From the NCBI GenBank assembly GCA_001817915.1, contig MHJJ01000006.1, positions 1-53,033 of the forward strand: a stretch of DNA of 53,033 bases. The letters are read 5' to 3'. The notes under the pieces were generated by a model, which saw nothing but the letters and a program-made list of their open reading frames with translations, had not been told where the DNA came from and did not search any database. This document shows positions 2,235 to 2,740 of the stretch, one piece after another; the first letter of the stretch is position 1; each line of letters opens with the position of its first letter. The DNA comes from Candidatus Harrisonbacteria bacterium RIFCSPLOWO2_01_FULL_44_18 (GTDB lineage Bacteria; Patescibacteriota; Minisyncoccia; UBA6257; WO2-44-18). A program made the position numbers and the translations under genes.

Positions 2235-2402
2235 CTATCTTTTAGATTCTTTATGGACTGTGTGTTTACGACACCAGCGACAATATTTAGATAATCCAAT
2301 CTTGCGCTCGACTAATTTTTTATTTTTCCGCGTATAATAATTCACCCGCTTGCAGGCCTCGCATTTCAACTTTATTAAATTAGCGCTGAATTTTGATGAC
2401 AT
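2235..2402 (-). CDS. rpmG: 50S ribosomal protein L33
   Basis: Too short for the track. The minus strand encodes 55 aa, MSSKFSANLIKLKCEACKRV, then NYYTRKNKK, YCRWCRKHT and a KESKR tail. This is the L33 pattern with two CxxC pairs for zinc (CEAC and CRWC) and the conserved NY-T-KNKK and KHT-H-E segments. It lies just downstream of tRNA-Thr(GGU), a common arrangement for rpmG. No Shine-Dalgarno is obvious; the ATG is the only sensible start. High confidence in identity. Confidence 0.88.
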   Translation of the reverse strand: MSSKFSANLIKLKCEACKRVNYYTRKNKKLVERKIGLSKYCRWCRKHTVHKESKR

Positions 2403-2465: not shown

Positions 2466-2740
2466 AGCCGATGGTCGGGATTGAACCGACGACCTACTCC
2501 TTCGCTTACACCTCCATTTCTCCCGCTTAACGGAATTATAGAAGGACTAGACTGTATCTTACTCCGAATTAAAGACGGAGCCCCTTGTCAGTCGTTCGGG
2601 TCCCGCTTAGCGGGGCCACGGTCTTGTCCATTTAAAATGGATATTAACCGTAATTCGGGATTCACACTATTATTACTAAAAGTGTGGGCAGGGATCTTGC
2701 GACCCACCATGGAGTTGCTCTACCACTGAGCTACATCGGC
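2466..2740 (-). tRNA. tRNA-Thr (GGU), interrupted by a group I intron
   Basis: Removing 2503-2705 leaves a perfect 72-nt cloverleaf: acceptor GCCGATG/CATCGGC, D arm GCTC/GAGC, anticodon stem ACTCC/GGAGT, loop ATGGTAA (anticodon GGT) and T arm GTCGG-TTCAATC-CCGAC. Exon 1 is 2706-2740 and exon 2 is 2466-2502. The intron sits between positions 36 and 37. The discriminator is U and CCA is not encoded. Without splicing this tRNA cannot form. Confidence 0.9.
2503..2705 (-). ncRNA. Group I self-splicing intron (203 nt) in tRNA-Thr
   Basis: The intron follows U36 and ends in G (omega-G). Core helices can be read in order: P1 hairpin (GGGTC-GCAA-GATCC, with exon GGU facing GCC), P2 (CACAC/GTGTG), P4 (ACGGT/ACCGT), P5 (TCCATTT/AAATGGA), P6 (CCCGC/GCGGG), P7 (GACTG/CAGTC) and P8 (CTCCG/CGGAG). 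The R-like GAACGACTGACA and S-like AAGATACAGTCTAGTCC segments match the conserved group I core. There is no homing endonuclease ORF. Subgroup not assigned. Confidence 0.87.

Follow-up and report, generated by a model that had tools for sequence, protein, structure and literature searches.

Group I introns in bacterial tRNA genes are short, contain no reading frame, interrupt the anticodon loop just behind a U, fold around a P1-P9 core and end with a G (PMC8450103, PMC3984707). The known bacterial hosts are tRNA-Leu(UAA) and tRNA-fMet of cyanobacteria, tRNA-Ile(CAU) of Azoarcus, Acidovorax and Burkholderia, and tRNA-Arg(CCU). In CPR bacteria the group I introns of rRNA genes are well described (Tsurumaki 2024, PMC11270868); they interrupt 16S and 23S genes, many of them carry homing endonucleases, and a search of the main text of that study for tRNA cases gave none. 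A study of circularised CPR genomes states that some tRNAs carry group I introns (PMC8172020), the same general observation as made here, in passages that do not specify the host tRNA, the intron family, its structure or its distribution.

The window, a 53,033-nt stretch of the genome of Candidatus Harrisonbacteria bacterium RIFCSPLOWO2_01_FULL_44_18 (contig MHJJ01000006.1), contains on the minus strand at 2466-2740 a tRNA-Thr(GGU) gene with a 203-nt insert between U36 and A37. The insert has in common with the known bacterial tRNA introns the anticodon-loop site after a U, the short length without an ORF, the P1-P9 helices and the terminal G. In contrast to them, the family it represents occupies tRNA-Thr(GGU), is hosted by Patescibacteria and has a core divergent enough to be missed by the Rfam group I model RF00028. 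With the CPR rRNA introns it shares the phylum and the ribozyme class but neither the location in 16S and 23S genes nor the homing endonucleases. The earlier note named no case in tRNA-Thr(GGU), and the literature searched, which included few subscription journals, likewise yielded no previous description of this family or of any group I intron in tRNA-Thr. The bacterial group I introns gain from it a further host tRNA as well as a divergent branch, in a phylum whose genomes are very reduced.

Exon 1 (2706-2740, minus strand, 35 nt) ends with the anticodon GGU, whose last base is U36, and has the same layout as the intact tRNA-Thr(GGU) of relatives. Exon 2 (2466-2502, minus strand, 37 nt) starts with A37 and A38 and includes the discriminator base; CCA is not encoded. 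The intron between them (2503-2705, minus strand, 203 nt) ends with the omega G at 2503. Neither ARAGORN nor Rfam identified a tRNA in the unspliced segment 2466-2740, whereas the joined exons form a 72-nt RNA that folds as a clean tRNA-Thr(GGU). In many relatives the gene is intact and positions 1-35 of the segment run straight into positions 239-275, an exact empty site. Because these empty sites are real, they define the intron boundaries and the insertion point U36|A37, which lies after a U in the anticodon loop as is characteristic of bacterial tRNA group I introns. The claim that the tRNA is complete only when 203 nt between positions 36 and 37 are removed therefore agrees with both the spliced fold and the empty sites. 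ARAGORN, when introns were allowed, read the gene as tRNA-Arg(GCG) with a different cut; this assignment is rejected, since the empty sites as well as P1 and the final G of the intron all lead to GGU|A.

The upstream neighbor, tRNA-Thr(UGU), was located by tRNA search at 2855-2927 on the minus strand and is intact, as the earlier note had stated. Downstream, a 55-aa ORF (2235-2402, minus strand) resembles ribosomal protein L33 by eye, and no integrase is present at this place. The gene order Tyr, Thr(UGU), Thr(GGU), Trp is that of an intronless relative, which places the window intron in an ordinary chromosomal gene. Just upstream of tRNA-Thr(GGU), within 2740-2800 of the minus strand, the tRNA start recurs as an 11-nt copy (GCCGATGTAGC), and a GC hairpin follows it; both are also present in an intronless relative (L011).

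Folded as a whole, the segment is more stable than shuffled sequences (z -4.9). On a first alignment, which comprised seven relatives with the same insert as the window, the helices could be read directly in the order P1, P2, P3, P4, P5, P6, P7, P3', P8, P7', P9, i.e., a pseudoknotted P3/P7 core with P4-P6 and P8 in the canonical group I order. P1 (2687-2708; all helices on the minus strand) is formed by the exon bases GGU (2706-2708) and the intron bases GCC (2687-2689), with a U-G wobble at the 5' splice site, and the layout GGU|...GCC recurs in the members read directly. In P2 (2663-2686) eight of the nine pairs have changed on both sides; its GNRA-type loop, GUAA in the window and of GNRA type in 106 of the 108 members scored, is compatible with subgroup IC3. 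The 5' strand of P3 (2657-2659) pairs in the pseudoknot with 2582-2584, and one of its pairs has changed from C-G to U-A, a compensatory replacement found in three sequences. P4 (2647-2651 with 2618-2622) encloses P5 (2636-2641 with 2627-2632) in the region 2618-2651; in the alignment of 31 sequences P4 is invariant and P5 contains compensatory changes, which also occur in two of the three P6 pairs (P6 with its extension, 2599-2617). The window sequence has one C-A mismatch in P6 and one mismatch in P2. The region 2550-2593 contains P7 (2589-2593 with 2550-2554), the 3' strand of P3 (2582-2584), P8 (2576-2581 with 2561-2566), which covaries in all six pairs, and J8/7 (AAGAUA, 2555-2560). P7 reads GACUG/CAGUC in essentially all sequences, with 99.4% of the cells paired, and P9 (2511-2545) covaries in four of its five pairs.

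Among the 31 homologues, 95.9% of the cells of the 43 pairs are able to pair, compared with 29-44% when the partners are slid, and double-sided changes affect 24 of the 43 pairs, compared with 8-12 in the slid controls; the covariation support for the pairing thus lies far above that of both shuffled and slid sequences. Since six of the 31 rows of the covariance-model alignment begin P1 wrongly at the D-loop, the junctions were also read directly. A U before the intron and a G at its end were obtained for 111 of 111 members (110 named loci and the window), a count that means that such a solution exists, as the host-finding script demanded a final G and yielded a result for 110 of the 115 named loci. 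The conservation of P7 and J8/7 among the named loci arises by construction because the search pattern selects on both. The introns of the family, 175-243 nt in length, encode no endonuclease, and their longest stop-free stretch comprises 74 codons. The earlier reading of the insert as a group I intron that follows a U, ends in G and has recognizable helices is in agreement with these data; junctions, helices, covariation and homology support this assignment, with tRNA-Thr(GGU) as the host.

A match to the Rfam group I model, proposed earlier as a check, was not obtained: even at E≤10 RF00028 did not match the window intron, and the Rfam search produced chance hits only. This result reflects the sensitivity of RF00028 rather than the absence of structure; within the order the model does detect such introns, in 140 of 243 genomes. 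A covariance model built for the family, designated R1, scores 201 bits over the full length of the window intron, the window being among its training sequences, and in the survey of the order it finds the family at E values of about 1e-40 or better. R1 also matches, weakly, RF00028-positive 23S introns of the kind known from CPR rRNA genes (26.8 bits, E 5.6e-6 in one genome), which ties the family to group I independently of the drawn helices. The poor covariance-model score that had been named as a refutation is thus formally given by Rfam, but it is outweighed by R1, which recognizes introns that RF00028 itself accepts. From the 30 R1 loci retrieved from the order, 24 splice cleanly at the ends set by the model; in the other six the start was misplaced at the D-loop and the exon sequence is the same. 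The junctions of a 31st carrier in the order read like the others. Brute-force splicing of the 115 named loci with ARAGORN was too permissive and explicit stem checks were used instead; at 110 loci the junction is GGT|A and the anticodon stems pair, and five gave no solution with the script. Since standard tRNA and Rfam searches miss the gene, the genome appears to lack an essential tRNA, and the same holds for many Patescibacteria.

The genome (752 kb in 14 contigs, 96.8% complete) contains 45 RF00005 matches, and 44 intact tRNAs were read, 41 outside the window and those for Trp, Thr(UGU) and Tyr inside it. No second tRNA-Thr(GGU) is among these 44, with a missing copy being possible in an assembly of 96.8% completeness. 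Splicing should therefore be essential, as the tRNA is needed for the ACC and ACU codons. The boundaries, the fold, the covariation, the homology and the single copy in the assembly are properties of the sequence itself, from which we infer the chemistry of splicing and its occurrence in the cell. The gene would be transcribed together with the intron, which would fold around the P3-P8/P4-P6 core such that its guide GCC pairs with GGU of exon 1 and creates P1 with the U-G wobble. The intron would then excise itself through the two usual guanosine-started transesterifications, and the joining of U36 to A37 would yield a normal tRNA-Thr(GGU) that reads ACC and ACU. Very probably, then, a self-splicing group I intron restores the only tRNA-Thr(GGU) found in this genome.

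If the insert were instead non-catalytic or the tRNA dead, the interrupted gene would be decaying and another tRNA would cover its codons. Rfam's failure to recognize the insert is in line with such a decay, but the core is strictly conserved and its helices covary across 31 genomes, the exons are intact and no second tRNA-Thr(GGU) gene was found in the genome, which makes this explanation highly improbable. Removal of the intron by proteins is less probable still. Protein-spliced tRNA introns of archaea, which form a bulge-helix-bulge, and those of eukaryotes are located in the anticodon loop near 36/37, close to the position found here; however, the window intron has a complete group I core, the U-G pair in P1 and the terminal G, and the archaeal splicing endonuclease is not known from bacteria.

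Beyond what the earlier note contained, the family is widespread and in some relatives linked to an integrative element. Strong R1 matches were found in 31 of the 244 genomes of the order (~13%), 53 of the 384 genomes of the class (~14%) and 17 of the 380 genomes of a phylum sample. The earlier suggestion of a selective gain or loss of the intron fits this patchy spread. A pattern scan of genome contigs revealed at least 115 contigs with the intron, almost all from Patescibacteria where a phylum is named, and in every resolved case the host is tRNA-Thr(GGU). Viral contigs did not contain the pattern, nor plasmids or phages the intron. A tree built from 68 introns has weak resolution; family labels nevertheless cluster beyond chance (36 changes compared with at least 39 in shuffles). 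The hypothesis that the order forms one clade is rejected (AU p 0.0097), whereas one clade for the family of the window is not. The tree, weak as it is, suggests a mixed history of vertical and lateral inheritance.

In about a dozen relatives the intron-bearing tRNA-Thr(GGU) occurs together with an integrative element; the window contains no such element. In contigs assigned to Niastella populi (Bacteroidota; L087) and to the archaeon Ca. Methanoperedens nitroreducens (L177), a tyrosine recombinase follows directly after the intron-bearing tRNA-Thr(GGU), and the two recombinases are 65% identical. At least five further Patescibacteria have the recombinase directly behind their intron-bearing tRNA, and relics are present in two others. 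Both flanks of the Methanoperedens contig are matched by sister genomes, so that the contig appears to be archaeal and the cassette an insertion; Niastella has an intact Thr(GGU) of its own elsewhere. The two cassettes would be cases of lateral transfer, if not of assembly mixing. Searches of viral contigs and of plasmids did not detect the integrase of the element.

At nine of ten recombinase loci a copy of the anticodon-loop sequence, WTGGTAA, precedes the intron-bearing tRNA by 128-147 nt, compared with three of 146 loci for which no recombinase is recorded (Fisher p ~2e-11, a descriptive value since the motif had been seen in a few loci before the counting). Of the three exceptions, one belongs to a genome that already provides a counted case and another runs off the contig. 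To the left of the copy, eight loci contain the 5' half of another tRNA-Thr. The missing 3' half of this host tRNA was found in seven of 16 genomes (six of them different), and the control with a reversed pattern gave none; in the Niastella and Methanoperedens contigs no right-hand half-site was found. When rejoined, the host halves gave tRNA-Thr(GGU) in five of five cases, although the test is not a strict one, as it was also passed by 12 of 20 mismatched partner combinations. The acceptor stems of the rejoined halves do fit each other, however, and differ in two genomes from the tRNA that the element carries. In a Doudnabacteria genome (L205, L299; contig 3:94.9-119.9 kb) both halves of tRNA-Thr(GGU) lie on one contig, 25 kb apart, and enclose two integrases, a ParB protein, an SNF2 helicase with a type ISP methylase, a FokI-like nuclease, and NERD, PD-(D/E)XK and AAA proteins, among them restriction- and defense-like genes. 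A sixth genome (G305) has the same arrangement spread across a contig break.

Some integrative elements insert in tRNA genes and restore them. The one described here, seen in some relatives, appears to resemble them in the tyrosine recombinase next to a tRNA and the crossover within the tRNA; it would differ in that the host tRNA is broken at the anticodon loop and a complete second gene is brought along, with the intron inside the same seven bases. According to a tentative model, to which we assign somewhat less than an even chance, the element would insert in the anticodon loop of tRNA-Thr(GGU), destroy the host gene and bring a replacement whose intron divides WTGGT|AA, the same seven bases that are cut in the host. 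The integrase could not act on the split site, from which the replacement would thereby be hidden, and splicing would still restore the tRNA; the cassettes in the Bacteroidota- and archaeon-assigned contigs would belong to the same scheme. That the intron is kept in the element-bearing relatives because it splits the crossover site is likewise conceivable, though slightly less likely than its opposite, and is compatible with self-splicing. The architecture of the element and the split host tRNAs speak for this model, as does a class sample unselected for introns, in which integrases at tRNA-Thr go with intron-bearing tRNA-Thr, compared with ~14% intron carriers among the genomes of the class. 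In that sample four of 315 genomes contain the integrase, two directly after an intron-bearing tRNA-Thr, one with a join at a contig break and one beside an intronless tRNA-Lys. However, the unselected cases number only three, the integrase also adjoins a tRNA-Lys that lacks an intron, and most carriers of the intron, including the window, have no element; moreover, introns and integrases both favor anticodon loops, so that their overlap could be due to chance. The link to the element offers a testable explanation of how an intron in the anticodon loop of a tRNA might be useful and not merely tolerated. If the intron does conceal the crossover site, intron-bearing chromosomal copies such as that of the window would share this immunity to the element.

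Within the order, other tRNAs commonly carry group I introns as well. The genome of the window itself has RF00028 introns in 16S and 23S rRNA genes (L253, L254; contigs 2 and 4) and in tRNA-Phe(GAA) (L252, contig 9:1-3000; intron 1007-1296, 76 bits), and no intact tRNA-Phe was found in it. Many more tRNA hosts in the order (L222-L251) were obtained with ARAGORN with introns allowed, the anticodon calls being uncertain; tRNA-Phe(GAA) is the most frequent, and Thr(UGU) and others also occur. In one genome (L064/L230, G031 contig 11) an RF00028 intron lies within the anticodon between U35 and U36 of a tRNA best read by eye as tRNA-Asn(GUU), which ARAGORN calls Tyr. Elsewhere in the genome of the window (L221, contig 8:15800-17200), a Thr-like tRNA contains an insert of ~230 nt with a complete tRNA-Thr(CGU) and hairpins, and a similar hairpin sequence (TCCCGATATTG...CGAGGATCCTCGAT) follows the 5' half of a broken tRNA-Thr at another locus (L301). 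A complete tRNA-Thr(UGU) is located between tRNA-like 5' and 3' halves in a further genome (L065, G033 contig 4), with the inverted repeat CCCCGTTAGATA/TATCTAACGGGG on the flanks.
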